From positions 1-64,000 of the forward strand of contig JAHDXW010000001.1 in assembly GCA_023383015.1 (NCBI GenBank): a stretch of DNA of 64,000 nucleotides, written 5' to 3'. Within the stretch, counting starts at the first letter, position 1; every line of letters starts with the position of its first letter. Position numbers and translations under genes: made by a program. The DNA is from Paracoccaceae bacterium (GTDB lineage Bacteria; Pseudomonadota; Alphaproteobacteria; Rhodobacterales; Rhodobacteraceae). The notes below the pieces were generated by a model. The model had not been told where the DNA came from, did not search any database, and saw only the letters and a program-made list of their open reading frames with translations. Below are positions 11,199 through 59,929 of the stretch, piece after piece.

Positions 11199-14100
11199 TC
11201 ACGGCTCGGGGACCAGCACCTCGCGCTTGCCCACATGGTTGGCGGCCGAGACGACGCCCGCCTCCTCCATCTGCTCGACCAGCCGGGCGGCCTTGTTGTA
11301 GCCGATGCCGAGCTTTCTCTGGATGTAGGAGGTCGAGCACTTGCGGTCGCGGGCGACGATCGCCACCGCCTGGTCGTAGAGGCCCTCGTCGGCGCCCTCG
11401 CCGCCCAGCCCCAGCGCCGTCTCGACCTCGGATTCGCGCTCCTCCTCGGGGCCCTCGAGCACGCCCGCCACATAGGCCGGCGGCCCGTAGCTCTTGAGGT
11501 GGTTGACGATCTCCTCGACCTCCTCGTCCGAGACGAAGGGGCCGTGGATGCGGGTGATGCGCGCGCCCCCGGCCATGTAGAGCATGTCGCCCATCCCGAG
11601 AAGCTGCTCGGCCCCCTGCTCGCCCAGGATCGTGCGGCTGTCGATCTTGCTCGTCACCTGAAACGAGATGCGGGTGGGGAAGTTGGCCTTGATGGTACCG
11701 GTGATGACGTCGACCGAGGGCCGCTGGGTGGCCATGATCAGGTGGATGCCCGATGCCCGCGCCATCTGTGCCAGGCGCTGGATGCAGGCCTCGATCTCCT
11801 TGCCCGCGACCATCATCAGGTCGGCCATCTCGTCGACGATGACGACGATGTAGGGAATGGCGACGGGCGCGAACTCCTCGGTCTCGTAGACCGGATCGCC
11901 GGTCTCCTCGTCGAAGCCGGTCTGGATGGTGCGGCGGAACATCTCGCCGCGCGCGAGCGCCTCGCGCACCCGGCCATTGTAGCCCTCGATGTTGCGCACG
12001 CCCATCTTGGACATCTTGCGGTAGCGCTCCTCCATCTCGGAGACGACCCATTTCAGCGCCACCACCGCCTTCCTGGGGTCGGTGACCACGGGACTGAGCA
12101 GATGCGGGATGCCGTCGTAGACGCTCAGCTCCAGCATCTTTGGGTCGATCATGATCAGCCGGCATTCCTCGGGCGAGAGCTTGTAGAGCAGCGACAGGAT
12201 CATGGTGTTGATCGCCACCGACTTGCCCGAGCCGGTGGTGCCGGCGATCAGCAGATGCGGCATCTTCGCCAGGTTCGCGACCACCGGCACCCCGGCGATG
12301 TCCTTGCCCAGCGCCAGCGGCAGGCGAAGCTGGCTGTCGCCGAAGTCGCGCGCGGCAAGGATCTCGCGCAGCAGCACCTTCTCGCGGTGGGCGTTGGGAA
12401 GTTCGATGCCGATGACCGAGCGGCCGGGAACGGTCGACACCCGCGCCGACAGCGCCGACATCGACCGCGCGATGTCGTCGGCCAGGCCGATCACCCGGCT
12501 GGCCTTCAGCCCGGGGGCGGGCTCGAGTTCGTAGAGCGTCACCACCGGGCCCGGGCGGACGCTGACGATCTCGCCCTTGACGCCGTAGTCGTCCAGCACG
12601 CTCTCCAGCATCCGCGCGTTCTCGGCCAGCGCGGAATCCGACAGCTGCGGCCGGCTCTGCCCGACCGAGTTCGACAGCAGCGACAGCGGCGGCGGGTCGT
12701 AGACGGGCGGGGGGTCGTCGAGAAGCAGGCGCGGCTGCGCCTCTGCCTGCGCCTTGCGCGAAGGCGCGGGCCGCCTGGGCGCCGGCTGCACCACGCGGCG
12801 GACCTCGGCCGAGAGCGGCGGCTGGAAGGCGGCGGCGAGGTCCGGCCAGTCCTCGCCCGCCCCCTCCTCGCCCGCGTCGGGCGCGCCGCCGGCCCCGCCC
12901 GCGGCAAGCGGGTCGTGCGCCGGCACCGGCGGGGCGGCGGCCGGCGCCGCCCGGGCGATGAAGGTCGAGACGGCGCGCAGGCTGCCGGGCAGCGCCTCGG
13001 CCGCCGGCGGGTCGGCAGGAACCGGCGCCTCGGGCAGGGCCGGCGCCGCGGGCAGGTCCGGCGCCGCGGTCGCGGCGGGACGGTGCCCGAAGACCGACCG
13101 CGCCGCCGCTGCCACCGCCGACAGCGGGGCCGAGAGCACCGAGGGGCTGGCCGCCGGCACGGCGACGGCGGCCGGTGCGGCAGGGGCCGCCGGGGCGGTC
13201 CGGCCGGTATCGGCGATCAGCGGCGGCGGCCGCCGGTCGCGGGCAAGCGGCGGGTCGCGCCGGCCGGCCGGCCCGGCGGCGGCCGGACGGGCAGCGCCAC
13301 GGGTCGCCCGCAGGCGGATCAGGTCGGCGATCTTGGCCCGCACGCGCGCCTCCGACGGCCCGCCGCCGGCAGCGGCGGCGGCCTCGGCTCCGGCCGGCGG
13401 CAACGGCTCGACCAGCTCGGGGACGGGCTCGGCCGGCGCCGACGGGACCGGCCCGGACGGCCGCGCCCCGGTGGCGTCGGCCGCGGGCCGCACCACCGGC
13501 GGCACCCGCGAGAGATAGCCCGCGCCGCGCGCCGGCCCGCCCTCGGCACCGGAGGCACCGGCCGGACCCGGGGCAGCGGCAACGGCGGGGGCCGCGGGCA
13601 GGGCGACCGTCTCTGGCGTCACCGCGGTCTCGGGCGGGCGGAGGATCGCGGTGCTGCGGAACGGCCGTTCGGGCGTCGGCGCGGCCTGGGCGGTGCCGCC
13701 CGCCGGCCGCGGCGCCGGCGCCAGCACCGGCGGCGCGGCAGGCGTCTGGCGCGGCGGCGCCGGGCGCACGACCGGCGGCTCGGCGCGGTTCGACAGGATG
13801 CGGGGCCTCTCGGGCAAGGCCGCGGGCGTGCCCGCGCGCTGGGCGGCCGGCGCGGGCACCGCGAGAGGCACGGGCATGCCCGCCGGCGCGGGCACGGGCA
13901 CGGGCACGGGCACGGGCGGCACCGCGGCGCGCACCGAGGTCGCCGCCGCGCGGATGGAGCTGCGGCGCGCGGCCCAGGCCGCCGCGCCCGCCCCCAGCCC
14001 GGCCCGCACGCCACGCAGCGCCAGCCTCGCGCCGAGGCCCGCAAGCGCCACGCCCCCGGCATAGACCGCGACGAGGCCCAGCAGCAGGAACCGGGCCAGC

Positions 14101-14678
14101 AGCCGCATCTCGCGCCGGTCGAGGCCCAGCACATAGAGCGCGAGCGCCACCATCGCGGCCAGCACCGCCACCGACAGCAGCCGCAGCCCGAAGCTGGCCG
14201 TCACCGGCGCCACGCCCAGCACCGCGCCCAGGACGGTGTCGCCGAAAAGACCGCCCAGTCCGAACGAATGCGGCCAGTCCGCCCCGGGCGTCAGGGTCGA
14301 GGCGAAGACCGCGCCCAGCGCCAGCGCGATCGGTGCGAAGACCACCCGCGACAGCGCCCGCTCGGCGCCCCGGTGGGCAAGATGGCGCCCGCCCCAGATC
14401 GCAAGGAGCGGCACAAGCCCCCAGGCGGCCAGCCCGATGACGATCATCAGCGGCGAGGCGATCGAGGCCCCGGTGCGCCCCAGCAGGTTCGCCGCCGGTG
14501 CGTCGGTGGCCGCAAGCCAGCTCGAATCGTCGGGCCGGTAGCTGGCCAGCATCGCCGCCACGGCGACGGCCAGCACGACCAGCAGCAGCCCCAGAGCCTC
14601 GCGCCCCCGCCGGGACAGGAGGGCCTGCGCCTGGGCGTTCAGGAACGGGTCGCGGTGGCGGATCTGGTAGGACGCCAT
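11199..14678 (-). CDS. ftsK: DNA translocase FtsK
   Basis: FtsK anchors at the division septum and pumps the terminus region to allow XerCD resolution. The 1159-residue protein has an N-terminal membrane domain with four or five helices (first about residues 28-45), a very long Pro/Ala/Arg-rich linker (about residues 200-620), and the RecA-like motor with Walker A GTTGSGKSVAINTM (near residue 813), MIDPKMLELSVYDGIPHLL and a VVIVDEMADLMM Walker B. The C-terminal gamma winged helix (SYIQRKLGIGYNKAARLVEQ) is intact, so KOPS reading is expected. It is longer than the usual 750-900 residues of related bacteria because of the linker. Confidence 0.96.
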   Translation of the reverse strand: MASYQIRHRDPFLNAQAQALLSRRGREALGLLLVVLAVAVAAMLASYRPDDSSWLAATDAPAANLLGRTGASIASPLMIVIGLAAWGLVPLLAIWGGRHLAHRGAERALSRVVFAPIALALGAVFASTLTPGADWPHSFGLGGLFGDTVLGAVLGVAPVTASFGLRLLSVAVLAAMVALALYVLGLDRREMRLLARFLLLGLVAVYAGGVALAGLGARLALRGVRAGLGAGAAAWAARRSSIRAAATSVRAAVPPVPVPVPVPAPAGMPVPLAVPAPAAQRAGTPAALPERPRILSNRAEPPVVRPAPPRQTPAAPPVLAPAPRPAGGTAQAAPTPERPFRSTAILRPPETAVTPETVALPAAPAVAAAPGPAGASGAEGGPARGAGYLSRVPPVVRPAADATGARPSGPVPSAPAEPVPELVEPLPPAGAEAAAAAGGGPSEARVRAKIADLIRLRATRGAARPAAAGPAGRRDPPLARDRRPPPLIADTGRTAPAAPAAPAAVAVPAASPSVLSAPLSAVAAAARSVFGHRPAATAAPDLPAAPALPEAPVPADPPAAEALPGSLRAVSTFIARAAPAAAPPVPAHDPLAAGGAGGAPDAGEEGAGEDWPDLAAAFQPPLSAEVRRVVQPAPRRPAPSRKAQAEAQPRLLLDDPPPVYDPPPLSLLSNSVGQSRPQLSDSALAENARMLESVLDDYGVKGEIVSVRPGPVVTLYELEPAPGLKASRVIGLADDIARSMSALSARVSTVPGRSVIGIELPNAHREKVLLREILAARDFGDSQLRLPLALGKDIAGVPVVANLAKMPHLLIAGTTGSGKSVAINTMILSLLYKLSPEECRLIMIDPKMLELSVYDGIPHLLSPVVTDPRKAVVALKWVVSEMEERYRKMSKMGVRNIEGYNGRVREALARGEMFRRTIQTGFDEETGDPVYETEEFAPVAIPYIVVIVDEMADLMMVAGKEIEACIQRLAQMARASGIHLIMATQRPSVDVITGTIKANFPTRISFQVTSKIDSRTILGEQGAEQLLGMGDMLYMAGGARITRIHGPFVSDEEVEEIVNHLKSYGPPAYVAGVLEGPEEERESEVETALGLGGEGADEGLYDQAVAIVARDRKCSTSYIQRKLGIGYNKAARLVEQMEEAGVVSAANHVGKREVLVPEP
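13890..13913. repeat. GGGCAC hexamer repeat (four copies) in ftsK
   Basis: Four perfect GGGCAC units encode alternating Val-Pro in the FtsK linker on the minus strand. The unit keeps the frame. Confidence 0.9.
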
Positions 14679-14687
14679 GCTGTCTCC

Positions 14688-15866
14688 TCACCCGAAAAGG
14701 CAATCGCGCAGCCGTTCGAGGCCGCGGCACATCTCGTCGACCGGCGCCACCATCGCGACGCGGACATGGCCGGCGCCCGGGTTCACCCCGTCCACCGTCC
14801 GGCCAAGGTAGCCCCCCGGCAGCACCCGCACCCCGGTCTGGCGCCACAGCTTCAGCGCCGCCGCCTCGCCGTCGGCGACCGGCAGCCACAGGAAGAACCC
14901 CCCGCCCGGCGGGCGATAGCCGGGAACGGCGCCCAGGATGGCATCCGCCGCCCGGTACTTCTCGGCATAGAGCGCGCGCGAGGCCGCGACATGGGACTCG
15001 TCGGCCCAGACCCGCGCCGAAACCTCCTGCACCGGCAGCGGCAGCGGCGCCCCGGCATAGGCGCGAAGCTGGCGCATCGCGGCGATCCCTCGCGGACCGC
15101 CGGCGACAAAGCCCGATCGCAGGCCGGGAAGGTTCGACCGCTTGGACAGCGAATGGAAGACGAAGACGCGCTCGGGGTCGGCCCCGACCTGCGCGGCGAC
15201 CTGCAGCGCCCCGGCCGGCGGCGCGTCGCGCCACACCTCCGAATAGCATTCGTCAGCGAACAGCGCGAAGTCATGGCGCTCGGCCAGCCCGATCAGCCCG
15301 GCAAGGTAGCCCGCGTCGGCCACCGCGCCCTGCGGGTTGGACGGCGAGCACAGGAAGGCGATCGCGGTCCGCTCCAGCACCTCTGCGGGCACCGCAGCGA
15401 AATCGGGCAGGAAGCCCGTCGCCGCCGTGGCCGGCAGATAGACAGGCTCGGCGCCGGCCGCGAGAGCGGCAACGGCATAGACCTGGTAGAACGGGTTCGG
15501 CATCAGCACCGCCGGCCGCCTGCCCCGCCGCGATTCGGGGCACAGGGCGATGACGGCGCCGAACAGCCCCTCTCGGGTGCCGTTCAGGGCCATGATCCGC
15601 TCGGGTCCGGCGGCGACGCCGTAGCGGCGGCCAAGCCAGGCCGAAATCGCGGCCAGCAGCGCCGCAGAGCCCTCGTTCGGCGGATAGACCGAAAAGCCCG
15701 CGATCGCCGCGGCCATCGCCTCGGCAACGAACGGCGGCGGTGGGTGGCGCGGCTCGCCGATCGTCATGTGCACGACCTCGCCGCCCGCCGGATGCCCGTC
15801 AAGCAACCGGCGCAGGCGCGGGAATGCATACTCCGGCAGGTCGGAAAACCGCCGCGGTAGGTCCAT
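14688..15866 (-). CDS. Class I/II PLP-dependent aminotransferase (DapC-like)
   Basis: A 392-residue aminotransferase from ATG 15866. Landmarks are GEPRHPPPPFV, VYPPNEGSAALLAAI, LNGTREGLF, MPNPFYQVY, the CSPSNPQGAV PLP loop, FALFADECYSEVW and the Schiff-base lysine in FHSLSKRSNLPGLRSGF. Related proteins are annotated as succinyldiaminopimelate transaminase (lysine/peptidoglycan pathway), for which the SLSKRSNLPGLRSGF segment is typical. It ends 9 bp before ftsK on the same strand, so ftsK may be cotranscribed. The substrate assignment is by family similarity only. Confidence 0.87.
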   Translation of the reverse strand: MDLPRRFSDLPEYAFPRLRRLLDGHPAGGEVVHMTIGEPRHPPPPFVAEAMAAAIAGFSVYPPNEGSAALLAAISAWLGRRYGVAAGPERIMALNGTREGLFGAVIALCPESRRGRRPAVLMPNPFYQVYAVAALAAGAEPVYLPATAATGFLPDFAAVPAEVLERTAIAFLCSPSNPQGAVADAGYLAGLIGLAERHDFALFADECYSEVWRDAPPAGALQVAAQVGADPERVFVFHSLSKRSNLPGLRSGFVAGGPRGIAAMRQLRAYAGAPLPLPVQEVSARVWADESHVAASRALYAEKYRAADAILGAVPGYRPPGGGFFLWLPVADGEAAALKLWRQTGVRVLPGGYLGRTVDGVNPGAGHVRVAMVAPVDEMCRGLERLRDCLFG

Positions 15867-23026: not shown

Positions 23027-24946
23027 TCAGGCCCGCAGCGCCCCGAACCGCGGAACTGCCACACCCAGCGCCGCCAGCGCCGTCGCCGCGATGTCGGCGG
23101 GCGCAAGGCCGGCCGCACGATACATGGCCTCAGGGCTCGCCTGGTCGATGAAGCGGTCGGGAAGCGTCATCGTGCGGATGCGCAGACCTGCATCCAGCCT
23201 CCCGCTGCGCGCCAGCCAGTGCAGCACCTGCGCGCCGAAGCCGCCCTCCGCCCCCTGCTCCACCGTCACCAGCGCGGCATGATCGCGCGCGAGGCGGTCA
23301 ATGAGACCGGTGTCCAGCGGCCTGGCGAAACGGGCGTCGGCCACGGTGGCCGACACCCCGCGCACCGCCAGCCCCTCGGCGGCCGCGAGGCAGGCGGCCA
23401 GGTGCGCCCCGTAGGACAGGATCGCCACCCCCGTGCCCTCGCGCACCACCCGGCCGCGGCCGATCTCCAGCGGCTGGCCGCGGGCGGGAAGCTCGGCCCC
23501 CGTCCCCTCGCCGCGCGGGTAGCGGAAGGCGATCGGCCCCTCGTCCCAGGCCGCCGCGGTCGCCACCATGTGGACAAGCTCGGCCTCGTCGGCGGCGGCC
23601 ATCACGACAAAGCCGGGCAGGTTGGCCAGGAAGGCGATGTCGAAGGCACCCGCATGGGTGGCCCCGTCGGCACCCACCAGCCCGGCGCGGTCGATGGCGA
23701 AGCGCACCGGCAGGCCCTGAAGCGCCACATCATGCACCAGTTGGTCGTAGCCGCGCTGCAGGAAGGTCGAGTAGATGGCGCAGAACGGCCGCATCCCCCC
23801 CGCCGCCAGCCCGGCGGCGAAGGTCACCGCATGCTGCTCGGCGATGCCGACGTCGAACACCCGCCGCGGAAAGCGCCGCTGCATCAGGTTGAGCCCCGTG
23901 CCCTCGGGCATCGCCGCGGTCACCGCAACGATCCGGGGGTCGACCTCGGCCTGCCGCGTCAGCGCCTCGCCGAAGACCCTCGTGTAGGCCGGGGCCGACG
24001 CCGCCGCCTTTGCCTGCGCACCCGAGGTGACATCGAATCGCGCCACCCCGTGGTACTTGTCGGCCGAGGTCTCGGCCGGCCTGTAACCCTTGCCCTTGAC
24101 CGTCACGGCGTGGATCAGGATCGGCCCGTCGGCGCGCGCGCGGACGGCGCGCAGCACGCCGAGGAGCTGGCCCATGTCATGGCCGTCGATCGGCCCGACG
24201 TAGGAGAAGCCCAGTTCCTCGAACAGCGTGCCGCCCCCCGGGACGCCCGTCACCAGCTGCCGGGCGCGGCGGGCGCCCTCGCGCAGCGGCCCCGGCAGGG
24301 CCCGCTCGAAGCCTTCGGCCATCTCGCGGAATGCCGCGAAGGGCGTGTCGGCCCACAGCCGGGCAAGGTAGCGCGACATCGCCCCGACCGGCGGGGCGAT
24401 CGACATGTCGTTGTCGTTCAGGATCACGAACAGCCGCCGCCCCTCGTGGCCGGCGTTGTTCAGCGCCTCATACGCCATGCCGGCCGACATCGCCCCGTCG
24501 CCGATCACCGCGATGGCGTCGCCGACCGGCCGGCCCAGGCCGCGGGCCACCGCAAAGCCCAGCGCCGCCGAGACCGAGGTCGAGGAATGGGCCGCGCCGA
24601 AGGGGTCGTATTCGCTCTCGCTGCGCCGGGTGAAGCCCGACAGCCCGCCCTCCTGGCGCAGGCTGCGGATGCGCGGGCGCCGGCCGGTGAGGATTTTGTG
24701 GGGATAGCACTGGTGGCCGACGTCCCAGACAAGCCGGTCGAAGGGGGTGTTGAAGACGGCATGGATGGCCACCGTCAGCTCCACCACGCCCAGCGACGAG
24801 CCGAGGTGGCCGCCGGTCTCCGAGACCGCGGCGATCGTCTCGGCGCGCAGCTCCTCGGCCAGCCGCACGAGCTCGTTGTCCGGCAGGGCACGCAGGTCGG
24901 CAGGGCAGGCGACGCGGTCAAGTGTGGGCGTCTGCGGGCGGGTCAT
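23027..24946 (-). CDS. dxs: 1-deoxy-D-xylulose-5-phosphate synthase
   Basis: Dxs condenses pyruvate and glyceraldehyde-3-phosphate, the first step of the MEP isoprenoid pathway that feeds carotenoids, the bacteriochlorophyll tail and quinones. The 639-residue protein shows [13 protein letters not shown], the thiamine-diphosphate motif [18 protein letters not shown], and [18 protein letters not shown] in the pyrimidine domain. GGAGGAT precedes ATG 24946. A dxs copy directly downstream of puf is a feature of Rhodobacter photosynthesis clusters, so this copy is probably the photosynthesis-linked one; part of its expression may come by read-through of the puf terminator. Confidence 0.97.
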
Positions 24947-25146: not shown

Positions 25147-26325
25147 TCAGTCCTGGGCCGGCTGGCCGGCCGGCGGCTCGGCCGGCGCCTCCTCGGCCGG
25201 CGTTTGGGGTGCAGTCCCCGGTGCCGGCTCGGGGGCGGGCGGCGGCGGGGCCGGCGGCGCGCTCGAGGCGAGCTCGGGCCAGTCCGAGATCATGTCGGCA
25301 CCGCCCATCGGTCGCTGATGGCCCTTGTGGCAGGTGTTGCACGCCGCCTTAGGCCCGTCGCCCAGCGGGCCGAGCCGAGCGGCCGGCAGGTCGGCCGCGA
25401 TCGGCGCCAGCCAGTCGTTGTTCAGTTCCAGCACCATCTGGATTCCCAGCGAGGCGTTGGACCACTGCGCCGTGACCTCGCCCTGCCCGGCATAGAAGGC
25501 CCGGCTGTTGTGGCAGAACACGCAGTTCACGCCCAGCGAGTTGGCGAAGTAGTTCATCAGCGCGAAGGTCCGCTCGGTGTTCTGCCAGGTCGGCAGGTCG
25601 GGCGTGGTCTCGACCCGGGCGGCAAGGTCATGCACGGTGATCTGCGCGCCGTCGACGAGGTATTTCTCCAGCGCGTCCGACGGCAGCGAGGTGTACTGGC
25701 TGGTCAGCGTCACCCGGTTCTGCACCGACGCCCAGCCGGCGGTGGCCTGCGTGACCGGCGGCGTGCCGAACCAGACGCCCGAGGGCACCGGCTCGCCGCG
25801 GTGGCAGGTGAAGCAGTTCACACCCGCATCGGTCCCGTCGTCGGCATAGGCATTGACATGCCCCGACCAGGCCTCGTTGAGCGTCCGGGTCATCTCGATC
25901 ATACGCCGCGCCACGACGGTCTGGTAGGTCTCCTCGCCGTCGAAGAGCGTGGGAATGCCGGTCCACTCCCGCATCGCCGCCACCACCCGCCCGTAGTTCG
26001 CCACGGTGAGGTCGGCGAGCAGCGGCTCGGCATCGGCGATCGCGTCGCGCGCCAGCGGGTCGCCGGGCTGCGGCACCACCGGCGGGGTGCTGGAATAGGC
26101 TGCGGCGGTGGGGTCGGGGCGGGCCGCAGCGGCGGCGAACTCGGGCACCGACATGCCGGTGCCGCGGGGGCCGGTCTGGGTCGAGACGGTGGCGAGCGCC
26201 CCGCCCCAGGTGACCACGATCCAGGCCCCGATCAGCCCCGCGCCGACGACGCCGACGATGATCCCGGGGCCGAAGACGTCGCGCGGGTTGTTCCTGTTCC
26301 AGCTGTCGAACCACTTGGGGAGCAT
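25147..26325 (-). CDS. pufC: Photosynthetic reaction-centre cytochrome c subunit, triheme type
   Basis: PufC is the periplasmic multihaem cytochrome that re-reduces the special pair. The 392-residue protein begins MLPKWFDSWNRNNP with an uncleaved membrane anchor (about residues 18-42) instead of a lipoprotein signal. Only three CxxCH motifs exist: CFTCH (171-175), CVFCH (268-272) and CNTCH (329-333). Aligning DLTVANYGRVVAAMREW and TVVARRMIEMT with tetrahaem PufC shows that the first haem site is replaced by EWTGIPTLFDGEE (about residues 120-132). The axial Met in FALMNYF, Met in RRMIEM and His in SGHV are kept. The C-terminal 50 residues are Pro/Ala/Glu-rich. Start is 1 bp after the pufM stop codon. 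Confidence 0.95.
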   Translation of the reverse strand: MLPKWFDSWNRNNPRDVFGPGIIVGVVGAGLIGAWIVVTWGGALATVSTQTGPRGTGMSVPEFAAAAARPDPTAAAYSSTPPVVPQPGDPLARDAIADAEPLLADLTVANYGRVVAAMREWTGIPTLFDGEETYQTVVARRMIEMTRTLNEAWSGHVNAYADDGTDAGVNCFTCHRGEPVPSGVWFGTPPVTQATAGWASVQNRVTLTSQYTSLPSDALEKYLVDGAQITVHDLAARVETTPDLPTWQNTERTFALMNYFANSLGVNCVFCHNSRAFYAGQGEVTAQWSNASLGIQMVLELNNDWLAPIAADLPAARLGPLGDGPKAACNTCHKGHQRPMGGADMISDWPELASSAPPAPPPPAPEPAPGTAPQTPAEEAPAEPPAGQPAQD

Positions 26326-26326
26326 C

Positions 26327-27295
26327 TCAGCCTCCGTTTCCTTGATAGGCCTCGTAGCCCCAGGGTCCGTCGTAGGCCGGGGCGAAGTTGTGCTCCTGCG
26401 CCCAGATGAACCAGTTGTCGACGACGGTGCCGGTCAGCAGGATGCCGATGCCGCCGGTGATCGGCGTCAGCACGGCAAACCACCAGGCCCAGCGGTGGAT
26501 GCCCTCCATCGTGGCGTTGAAGCCCATCGTCCAGCGCCAGAACAGGGCCGCGCGCTCCGAGGCGGTGCCGCGGTCGACGATCTGCTCGAGCTCGCGGTCG
26601 CCGCCGAAGCGCGAGACCGCGAGAATCGTCGCCCCGTGCATCGCGAACAGCAGCACCGAGCCGTAGAGGAAGACGATCGAGAGCGCGTGGAAGGGGTTGT
26701 AGTAGAGGTTGCCGTAGCGGATCGAGAACGCCGTGGTCCAGTCGAGGTGCGGGAAGATGCCGTAGGGCACCGCCTCCGACCACGACCCCATCAGGATCGG
26801 CCGGAGCAGGCCCAGGACCAGGAACAGCCAGATCGCCGCGGCGAAGGCCCAGGCGACATGCTTGCCCATCCGGTGCATCTGCGCCAGCTGGTAGACCCGC
26901 AGCCACCAGGTGCAGACCGAGATTAGCAGCATCAGGCTCGCGATGATGTACCAGCCGCCGTCGTCCAGCGGCGGGATGCGCAGCCCGTATTGCGGGCTCG
27001 GCGGCTCGAGGGCAAGCCAGAACAGCTGCCGGATGAACTCGGCGATGTCCCAGTTCACCTGCGCCAGCATGTTGAAGCCGATGATGTTCAGCCACAGCGT
27101 GCCGGTGGCCAGCGAGATCAGGCCCCACATGCCAAGGTAGATCGGACCCAGCTGGGCGTTGCCGATCCAGCCGAGCAGCGCCGAGAAGCCGGGCCGGCCG
27201 GCCCGCTCGGACATCATGTCCTCGGCGTTGTCCATCCCCCATTCAGGGGCGCCGCGCACCTGCACCTGGGTGAAGATGTTCTGATACTCGGCCAT
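26327..27295 (-). CDS. pufM: Photosynthetic reaction-centre M subunit
   Basis: PufM is one of the two membrane subunits holding the special pair, bacteriopheophytin and QA. The 322-residue protein carries the expected ligands: NPFHALS for the special-pair magnesium, AMHGAT and GIHRWAWWF for the non-haem iron, and the M-specific glutamate in [11 protein letters not shown]. The C-terminus keeps [14 protein letters not shown]. It starts 3 nt after the pufL stop codon and ends 1 nt before pufC, so the three genes are tightly coupled. Confidence 0.98.
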
Positions 27296-27298
27296 GGC

Positions 27299-28147
27299 TC
27301 ACATCCCCCCTGCCGCGCGTGCCGCCGGCCAGATCGGCAGGTCGAGCCACCAGTTCCACCATTCCGGCCAGCCCTTGGTCCACACCGGCCCGGAGATGAT
27401 GATGCACACTGCCGACCAGAAGCCGGCGTTCAGCGCCAGCAGCAGCCCCAGCCGGTGGATGCCCAGCGTGCCGACCGAGTAGCCGATGAAGTCGCGGAAG
27501 AAGGTGTCCTCGTGGTCGGGCGTCTTCATCTCCTCGCCCGGCTCGGGGTTGGCCGCCGAGAGGATGAGGCCGCCGTGCAGCGCCAGCGCCAGCGTGGTGG
27601 TGAAGAAGAACGTCACCGCCAGCATGTGCGCCGGGTTGTAGTGGAAATGCAGGTAGGCGTAGCCGGTGTTCGACACCCAGTCGAGGTGGCTGAAGATGCC
27701 GTAGGGAAAGCCATGCCCCCATGCGCCCATCAGCAGCGGCCGGAACACCACCAGCGTGACATAGGCAAGGATGGCGAAGCCGAAGGCGAAGGGCACATGG
27801 TAGCCCATCCCGAGCTTGCGGCAGATCTCCACCTCGCGCAGCGCCCAGGAGACGAAGGCGCCGATCGCGCAGATGGTGATGATCTGCCACAGCCCGCCCT
27901 CGTTCAGCGGCGCCATCGCCAGGCCGTGCCTCAGGTCGGGCGGCGCGATCGAGATCAGCCAGGGGTTCCACTCGCCCTGTTGGGCGGCCCCCCACAGGAT
28001 CAGCGCGGTGCCGAGGACGGAGAAGAAGATCGTCGTGACCCCGAAGAAGCCCACGTAGAAGGGACCCACCCAGAAGTCGAACAGGTCGCCGCCGATCAGC
28101 GTCCCTCCCCGGACGCGGTACTTTCGTTCGAAACTCAGCAATGCCAT
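27299..28147 (-). CDS. pufL: Photosynthetic reaction-centre L subunit
   Basis: A 282-residue L subunit starting [20 protein letters not shown]. Ligands are visible: SHLDWVS and [10 protein letters not shown] (bacteriochlorophyll His), ALALHGGL and [11 protein letters not shown] (iron His), and the QB glutamate in [11 protein letters not shown]. The length is normal for purple bacteria. It follows pufA after a 154-bp gap with strong hairpins, as in Rhodobacter. Confidence 0.98.
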
Positions 28148-28301: not shown

Positions 28302-28472
28302 CTAGCGCGCGGCCGCCGCGGCGCGCGCGGCCGCCGCGTTCTGGAACCAGTTCACGCCGTTCGAGAGCACGACGAGATGGATCAGAACCGCCAGCAGGAA
28401 CAGGAACACGCCCTGTGCCACGAACACGCGGCGGGGGTCGAAGACCATCCAGATCTTGTAGAACTTGGCCAT
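28302..28472 (-). CDS. pufA: LH1 light-harvesting alpha subunit
   Basis: A 56-residue antenna polypeptide: [20 protein letters not shown], one membrane helix, and the bacteriochlorophyll-binding His in LIHLVVLSN followed by WFQNA. The C-terminus is an Ala/Arg tail (ten of the last eleven residues after QN are Ala or Arg). RBS GGAGGACCC lies upstream; the start is 13 nt after the pufB stop codon. Confidence 0.97.
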
Positions 28473-28485
28473 TCGCGGGTCCTCC

Positions 28486-28635
28486 TCAGAACCAGGGCGC
28501 CCAGATGTACGTGGCGATGTGAGCGACGATGGCCACGGCCGTGAACAGCCAGAGCCCGCTCATGTACACCGAGTGCAGTTCCTGCGCCTGCTCGTCGGTC
28601 AGACCCGTGAACGACAGGTCGGATTTATCAGCCAT
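28486..28635 (-). CDS. pufB: LH1 light-harvesting beta subunit
   Basis: A 49-residue antenna polypeptide beginning [20 protein letters not shown], with the conserved His of HSVYMSGLW near the membrane face, the bacteriochlorophyll-ligand His in [13 protein letters not shown], and the usual aromatic C-terminus. A strong ribosome site (CCGGAGGAAAT) precedes the ATG. Confidence 0.97.
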
Positions 28636-28798: not shown

Positions 28799-29020
28799 TC
28801 ATGCCGAGAAGATCATCGGGGTGATGATCCGCGCCTGGCTCCAGGCGCGCGCCACCGGCCCGCGGTCGGGCCAGTGCCCCCCTCGCAGCAGCGACAGCGC
28901 CCAGGTCAGGGTCGCAAGCGGCAGGGTGGCCAGGAAGATCAGGCCGAAATAGACACGGAATTCTGCCCGCGACGGCCGGACCGGCCGGGTGAGGTGAAAG
29001 TCGGACGTCTGGTCGCTCAT
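28799..29020 (-). CDS. pufQ: PufQ, bacteriochlorophyll-linked assembly factor
   Basis: A 73-residue single-helix protein: [40 protein letters not shown] (membrane segment), and a C-terminal [14 protein letters not shown]. PufQ occurs at the head of the puf operon in Rhodobacter relatives and is tied to tetrapyrrole supply to the complexes. Its ATG overlaps the bchZ stop codon (ATGA, 29017-29020). Confidence 0.92.
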
Positions 29021-58425: not shown

Positions 58426-58588
58426 ACGCCGACAATGGCATGGCCGCCGCCCCTGAACAATGCGGCCGGGGCGGGCGGTGGCGGCGGGTCGGGGCACCGC
58501 GGGCGCGCGGGCCTTCCCACCGGCGCTTCGGCGTGCTTCACTCCGGTCCGGGCACGCGCAACGCGCCCGCCAGCAGAGGTGACATGCG

Positions 58589-59929
58589 GTGAAGCCCTGG
58601 CTGATCGGTGCCGCCGGCGCCGCCCTTGCCACCGCGGTCCTCGCCGCGGACGAGGCCGAGCCCCCGCCGTTGCCCGAACCGCTGACCGACGCCGCCTATC
58701 GCCCGGTCGATCCGGCCGCGGCCGGGCTCGGCCAGTTGCTCTTCTACGACCGGCTGCTGTCGGGCAACCGAGACATCGCCTGCGCCACCTGTCACCATCC
58801 CCGCCACGGCACCTCCGACGGGCTGTCGCTGGGGCTCGGCGCCGGCGGTCTCGGCCTCGGCCCCGGCCGCCGGCCCGACCCCGCCGCAGCCCGGCCGCCG
58901 CGCCGGCAGGCGCGCAACGCCCCGGCGCTGTGGAACCTCGGCGCCACCGAGCTCACCGCGCTGTTCCACGACGGCCGGCTGGAGGTTGACGAGAGCCGCG
59001 ATTCTGGCCTGCGCGGCCCGGTGGCCGACGAGCTTCTGCAGGGCCTTCCGGGCATGCTCGCGGCGCAGGCGATCTTCCCCCTCCTGTCGCATGACGAGAT
59101 GGCCGGCCCCCCGGGCAGCAACCCGGTGGCCGACGCCCTGGCCGAGGGGCGGATCACCGGCCCCGACGGGGCGATCGCCCGCATCCTCGCCCGCCTCGAG
59201 GCGCTGCCCGCCTATCGCGAGGGCTTCGCCTCCGCCTTCGACGACATCGCCGCGGGCGCTCCGATCGGCCTTGTCCATGTGACCTCCGCCCTGGCGGCCT
59301 TCATCGCCTTCGAGTTCCGCTCCGACACCAGCCTCTACGACCTCCACCTCTGGGGGGCCGAGCGGCTGGAGGAGGACGCCCGCGCCGGCAAGATGCTGTT
59401 CTTCGGCAGCGCCGGCTGCGCCGACTGCCACGCCGGCCCGCTGTTCACCGACCATGGCTTCCACGCCATGGGCCAGCCCCAGATCGGCCCCGGGCCCGAT
59501 GCGGCATCCCTGGGCCACGGCCGCGACACCGGGCGCGCCCGGATCAGCGGGCGGGCGGCGGACGCCTATGCCTTCCGCACCCCGCCGCTGCGCAACGTCA
59601 CCGTCACCGGCCCCTGGGGGCATGCCGGCGCGTTCACCGACCTCGCGGCGTTCCTGCGCCACCACGCCGACCCGGTGGCCGGCCTCGCCGCCTACCGGCG
59701 GCAGGCACGCCTTCCCCCGCCCGAGGATCCCGCCGACTGGGCGGTGATGGACGACCCTGCCGCCCGCGCGGCCATCGCCGCCGCGGTCACCCGGCCGCCG
59801 GTCGCGCTCTCGGCGGCCGACATCGCCGCGCTCGTCGCATTTCTCGACAGCCTCACTGACGAGGACGCGCTTGCCGGCCGGCTCGGCATTCCGGAGGCGG
59901 TGCCCAGCGGCCTTCCCGTGGATCGCTGA
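58589..59929 (+). CDS. Dihaem cytochrome c peroxidase, MauG-like family
   Basis: A 446-residue exported protein from GTG 58589 (AGAGG upstream) with a signal peptide ending near LAADEAE. It has two haem motifs, CATCH (near residue 68) and CADCH (near residue 276), FYDRLLSGNRDIAC, and GPWGHAGAFTDL before the C-terminal helices, the architecture of bacterial dihaem peroxidase/MauG-like proteins. Without methylamine dehydrogenase genes nearby, a MauG role is not implied; peroxide defence or a free dihaem enzyme is equally possible. Confidence 0.9.
   Translation: MKPWLIGAAGAALATAVLAADEAEPPPLPEPLTDAAYRPVDPAAAGLGQLLFYDRLLSGNRDIACATCHHPRHGTSDGLSLGLGAGGLGLGPGRRPDPAAARPPRRQARNAPALWNLGATELTALFHDGRLEVDESRDSGLRGPVADELLQGLPGMLAAQAIFPLLSHDEMAGPPGSNPVADALAEGRITGPDGAIARILARLEALPAYREGFASAFDDIAAGAPIGLVHVTSALAAFIAFEFRSDTSLYDLHLWGAERLEEDARAGKMLFFGSAGCADCHAGPLFTDHGFHAMGQPQIGPGPDAASLGHGRDTGRARISGRAADAYAFRTPPLRNVTVTGPWGHAGAFTDLAAFLRHHADPVAGLAAYRRQARLPPPEDPADWAVMDDPAARAAIAAAVTRPPVALSAADIAALVAFLDSLTDEDALAGRLGIPEAVPSGLPVDR

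Follow-up and report, generated by a model that had tools for sequence, protein, structure and literature searches.

A three-haem PufC of the Dinoroseobacter shibae kind and a probably exchanged haem-1 module in the Rhodobacteraceae

Which haem is missing from a reaction-centre cytochrome with three haem-binding motifs, and how was that state reached? The question is raised by the pufC gene of the window, the 64,000-nucleotide stretch of DNA analysed here. The gene occupies positions 25147..26325 of the minus strand, starts with ATG and encodes a cytochrome subunit of 392 residues with three CxxCH motifs. In a profile search, the protein scored 311.1 bits against PF02276 (cut-off 22.4) and 311.6 bits against the NCBIfam equivalog NF040706 (cut-off 150). 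It follows pufL and pufM in the puf operon, within a photosynthesis cluster that has the standard order on the minus strand: a pufQ-like ORF (28799..29020), pufB for LH1 beta (28486..28635, PF00556), pufA for LH1 alpha (28302..28472, PF00556), pufL (27299..28147, PF00124), pufM (26327..27295, PF00124), pufC and dxs (23027..24946; TIGR00204, 747 bits), the last being the gene usually found downstream of pufC. The pufQ-like ORF (MSDQTSDF...IITPMIFSA) was named from its position and resemblance, and had no match among the NCBIfam profiles. No second PufC was found in the genome of the window organism. Near the end of the window, an ORF on the plus strand (58583-59926) carries two CxxCH motifs (CATCH and CADCH) and is possibly related to di-haem cytochrome c peroxidases.

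The three motifs noticed in a sequence-only reading of this DNA are borne out: CFTCH at residues 171-175 for haem 2 (25801..25815), CVFCH at 268-272 for haem 3, beside the special pair (25510..25524), and CNTCH at 329-333 for haem 4 (25327..25341), all on the minus strand, as are the PufC features given below. No fourth CxxCH is present in the open frame of pufC, including its upstream extension. In the place of the haem-1 site stands REWTGIPTLFDGEE; the position itself reads REWTGIPTLFDGEETYQT, with neither Cys nor His, in agreement with the earlier statement that Cys and CxxCH are lacking there. The lost site spans residues 120-132 (EWTGIPTLFDGEE; 25930..25968). The axial ligand is also gone: position 115, which is Met in every four-haem row of the alignment (29 of 29 from the family, 10 of 10 from the outgroup), is Val, Leu or Ile in every three-haem row and Val115 in the window protein (25981..25983). 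With three motifs and Val115, the protein differs from a four-haem PufC on both counts.

Are the remaining haem sites intact? Ligands were assigned from the outgroup rows of the alignment and from PMC12079452. On this basis, Met142 (25900..25902) is the predicted sixth ligand of haem 2, Met257 (25555..25557) that of haem 3, and His156 (25858..25860) the predicted distal ligand of haem 4. These three residues and His175, His272 and His333 are invariant across 35 three-haem, 29 four-haem family and 10 outgroup rows. The Met of the FALMNYF motif had been read as the ligand of the next haem; it is indeed kept, but it is Met257 and occupies the ligand position of haem 3, whereas haem 2, the next haem in the sequence, uses Met142. 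Since the haem-1 ligands are lost and the six others retained, haem 1, the farthest from the special pair, would be absent together with both its ligands, while haems 2 (His175/Met142), 3 (His272/Met257) and 4 (His333/His156) appear complete. The sequence, the full set of retained ligands and the structures of three-haem relatives all support a three-haem PufC without the distal haem.

Is the loss confined to the haem-1 site? The four-haem PufC of Roseobacter, Roseovarius litoreus, Tateyamaria omphalii DOK1-4 and Blastochloris belong to the same family, share the place in the puf operon and have the same ligand positions for haems 2-4. They differ in possessing a haem-1 CxxCH and Met, and also in the sequence class of residues 73-143 (25897..26109 in the window), the haem-1 module. 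The earlier view that the surroundings of the lost site are retained needs correction in view of this difference, and so does the picture of a single site gone from an otherwise unchanged protein, since the difference extends over a complete segment of some 70 residues, which was apparently exchanged as a unit. In pairwise comparisons and trees, the module is the sole part of pufC whose sequence tracks haem number. Between three-haem and four-haem sister proteins, mean identity is 9-54% in residues 73-143 and about 60-100% elsewhere. Over short stretches of these protein pairs, the excess of sequence difference linked to haem state ranges from +0.09 to +0.45 at residues ~65-148, compared with -0.002 to +0.034 in the rest of the protein.

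The phylogenies of the module and of the rest of the gene are in conflict. When residues 76-143 are left out, three-haem and four-haem pufC genes are mixed in the tree, and the haem state changes 16 times; well-supported branches force at least 10 of these changes. A single three-haem clade is rejected by this part of the gene (p-AU 2.4e-7), at a cost of 367 log units. Mixed pairs on well-supported branches include L105/L135 in Litoreibacter, L088/L006 (Tateyamaria), L086/L018 (Rhodophyticola), L059/L048, and D. shibae (L055) with Dinoroseobacter sp. MO_035.B25 (L104); L055 was identified as D. shibae from its protein, which matches the chain of 8YY9 exactly over the compared stretch. The neighbouring pufM gene, taken alone, again pairs L105 with L135, L086 with L018 and L088 with L006, and its tree requires at least eight changes of state. 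By contrast, the module alone places all three-haem sequences in one clade with support of 100/100. Its upstream flank, residues 73-114, which contains neither the loop nor the ligands, gives the same clade (100/99.9), whereas a control segment as large as the module (residues 177-247) needs 17 changes of state.

How much weight can such short segments bear? The module rejects the rest-of-gene tree at about 15 log units per column, and the control rejects it as well, at about 3 per column and thus about five times more weakly; short segments evidently reject other trees easily, and the contrast between the two counts for more than the p-value. Topology tests of single pairs on the 42 flank columns gave borderline p-AU values of 0.05-0.12. 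With these limits of short segments, the number of exchanges is a rough figure. The finding of a single module clade, while the rest of pufC and pufM mix the two states, points to intragenic recombination. The window protein groups with the three-haem L067 inside a mixed clade, and the pattern of exchange comes from other lines of the family and not from the window's own.

Mosaic genes are found in several genera. For example, the three-haem PufC of Sedimentitalea arenosa (L056, the same gene as L078) is 83% identical to the four-haem L082 over residues 1-70 and 78% over residues 146-352, but only 34% over residues 73-143. Against the three-haem L059, the corresponding values before, within and after the module are 67%, 73% and 63%. 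Two strains of one named species provide a second case: Tateyamaria omphalii DOK1-4, with four haems, and KCTC 12333, with three, share 87% and 83% of residues before and after the module and 28% within it. In the genus that includes Roseovarius, module DNA is 43-54% identical between states and 70-85% within them (four-haem L224-L226; three-haem L229, L230, L232 and L233), whereas pufL, pufM and the rest of pufC are equally alike within and between haem states. The open-access literature that was searched contained no earlier description of pufC mosaics or of an exchangeable haem-1 module.

Could the haem-1 site have been lost many times independently, with the freed lobe evolving fast and the constraints of the fold making the loops converge? 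This is the strongest of the alternatives, and residues that pack against the place of the missing haem might plausibly have converged to some extent. It would also account for the absence of visible recent transfer: among the compared pairs, no near-identical module was found on divergent backgrounds (the largest excess was +0.10), and three-haem modules differ from one another more than their backgrounds do (mean -0.069). If exchange took place, these values mean that the exchanges are old or that the module evolves fast, and the breakpoints are not placeable to the base. Convergence fits less well with the recurrence of the loop WTGIPxL...YQT at nearly equal length, or with residues 121-145 (WTGIPDLLAGEENYQTVVARRMIQM), which Sedimentitalea L056 shares without any difference with L059 and L067, to which its background is just 59-67% identical. 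Nor would it readily bring the upstream flank, free of loop and ligands, into one clade. Repeated independent loss is therefore considered unlikely.

A second possibility is a single loss of haem 1 in an ancestor. Vertical descent would then have passed on the three-haem state, an intermediate between four-haem PufC and reaction centres that lack the cytochrome. The idea of an intermediate stage has been published (PMC12079452), and the single clade of the module taken alone would agree with it. However, a single three-haem clade is rejected by the rest of pufC and disagrees with pufM. Three-haem and four-haem genes are also found together in a single genus, and in strains given the same species name. 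A single vertical loss is therefore very improbable. The preferred reading is that the haem-1 module of about 70 residues (73-143 in the window protein) exists as two sequence classes in the Rhodobacteraceae, and that it has passed repeatedly from one pufC gene to another by recombination in the conserved flanking sequence. As the outgroup genes are all four-haem, four haems are taken as ancestral. The three-haem state would then not have been reached by an isolated deletion in the lineage of the window organism.

Which of the known three-haem cytochromes does the window protein resemble? Three-haem PufC has been solved in D. shibae (8YY9) and Rhodovulum sulfidophilum (9WQV). Two kinds can be distinguished in the family; in the common one, which includes the window protein and that of D. 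shibae, the WTGIPxL loop is present and the haem-2 Met is kept. Judged by its residues, the window protein is a further example of this kind: the haem-1 CxxCH and Met are lost, and the ligands of haems 2-4, including the haem-2 Met, are conserved. The best match in the PDB, by sequence and by structure, is D. shibae 8YY9 (469 bits in sequence), followed by R. sulfidophilum 9WQV (292 bits). An AlphaFold model of poor quality (20 sequences, mean pLDDT 56) was used solely for ordering the PDB matches; these also identified the source organism of 9WQV.

The D. shibae protein (PDB 8YY9, 8YZ2, 9JPB; 9LTS) likewise has three haems, lacks haem 1, has a WTGIPDL loop and keeps the haem-2 Met. Three haems were shown in its purified complex, in which the Met/Cys/Cys/His ligands of haem 401 are replaced by Leu117/Asp128/Leu130/Glu131 and the pocket is absent (PMC12079452). 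It begins with an N-terminal transmembrane helix (PMC12079452) and has no lipobox Cys; the window protein has a corresponding helix at residues ~18-41 (26203..26274), also without a lipobox Cys, and is probably anchored in the same way. The two proteins are about 59% identical and differ in a four-residue insert before haem 2 and in a C-terminal tail, both present in the window protein. The tail is rich in Pro, Ala and Glu, comprises about 37 residues (PPAPPPPAPEPAPGTAPQ...; 25150-25263) and is absent from most aligned three-haem relatives.

Rhodovulum had been offered as the parallel in the sequence-only reading. The comparison holds for haem number and for the missing haem-1 CxxCH, and fails at haem 2, where Rhodovulum has Cys in the ligand position and the window protein keeps Met142, as D. 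shibae keeps its Met. The Rhodovulum protein also differs in its loop (WVGxxVVLYDxGE) and in its long branch in the tree. Three Rhodovulum-like PufC of genus g366 (L074, L192 and L193) all have Cys147 in place of the haem-2 Met. The PufC from the genus of G367 closely matches 9WQV and likewise shows a differing loop and a Cys facing haem 2. Reportedly, Alric et al. in 2004 found ligation by Cys148 and a very low potential in R. sulfidophilum. That the window protein is itself a Rhodovulum-type cytochrome with a Cys-ligated haem 2 has the equal haem number in its favour, and the module tree does not reject both kinds as one clade (p-AU 0.42); nevertheless, Met142 and the gap between 469 and 292 bits leave it hardly credible. 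Least probable of all is a sequencing or assembly error that hides a fourth CxxCH, since the frame is intact and the loop at the haem-1 place, with W-T-G-I as invariant columns, is common to 18 related proteins and to the independently solved D. shibae structures, which speaks against decay as well as error. On balance, the product of the gene is probably a functional three-haem PufC like that of D. shibae, with its haem state carried by an exchangeable haem-1 module.

How widespread is the three-haem form? Among 397 sampled genomes of the Rhodobacteraceae, 20 of the 74 PufC genes encode three CxxCH motifs; in other families of the same class, none of 17 PufC genes does. Named carriers include Sedimentitalea arenosa, Rhodosalinus halophilus, several Roseovarius species, Tateyamaria omphalii KCTC 12333 and Marinibacterium profundimaris. 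In many Rhodobacteraceae, the place of pufC is filled by PufX, and such operons lack the cytochrome. A second species of the window's genus has a PufX-like ORF of 78 residues at the pufC place beside pufL and pufM (L240; G002 C11, 2405-2641, minus strand), and no reaction-centre gene was found in a third (G001). A single genus thus spans three-haem PufC, PufX and apparently no phototrophy.

What would the absence of the distal haem mean for electron donors? In the model proposed for D. shibae, cytochrome c2 docks close to the membrane at a distance of 18.4 A from haem 403 (haem 3 here), and not at the distal haem as in four-haem complexes (PMC12079452). By analogy, a donor of the cytochrome c2 type would most likely dock near the membrane in the window organism and pass electrons through haem 3 to the special pair, and the distal entry of four-haem complexes would not be needed. 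Two candidate donors are encoded in its genome: a c2-type cytochrome (L238; G000 C1:417597) and a membrane-tethered two-domain c-type cytochrome (L214). The latter (G000 C12, ~13495-14700, minus strand) has a membrane anchor and two domains resembling c2 or c-550, each with a single CxxCH; Glu/Pro/Ala/Gln repeats make up the linker of about 110 residues between them. It is a possible tethered, two-headed electron shuttle. HiPIP was considered as a donor that might track haem number; it is present in one of 63 genomes and explains nothing.

Probably, the choice between three and four haems in the Rhodobacteraceae lies in one exchangeable segment of about 70 codons in pufC, which has moved between lineages many times, so that haem number, and probably the docking place of the donor, could be switched in a single recombination step. 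The three-haem form was previously read by the D. shibae authors as possibly lying halfway on the path from reaction centres with four haems to those without the cytochrome (PMC12079452). The pattern of exchange argues for reversible alternatives and not for one-way steps: both haem numbers would be kept side by side in one family and swapped through one short segment. The purpose of the distal haem, an old question, becomes directly testable. Cultured strains that differ mainly in the pufC module offer natural pairs for swapping it and for measuring kinetics: Tateyamaria omphalii DOK1-4 with KCTC 12333, and Roseovarius litoreus with R. gaetbuli.
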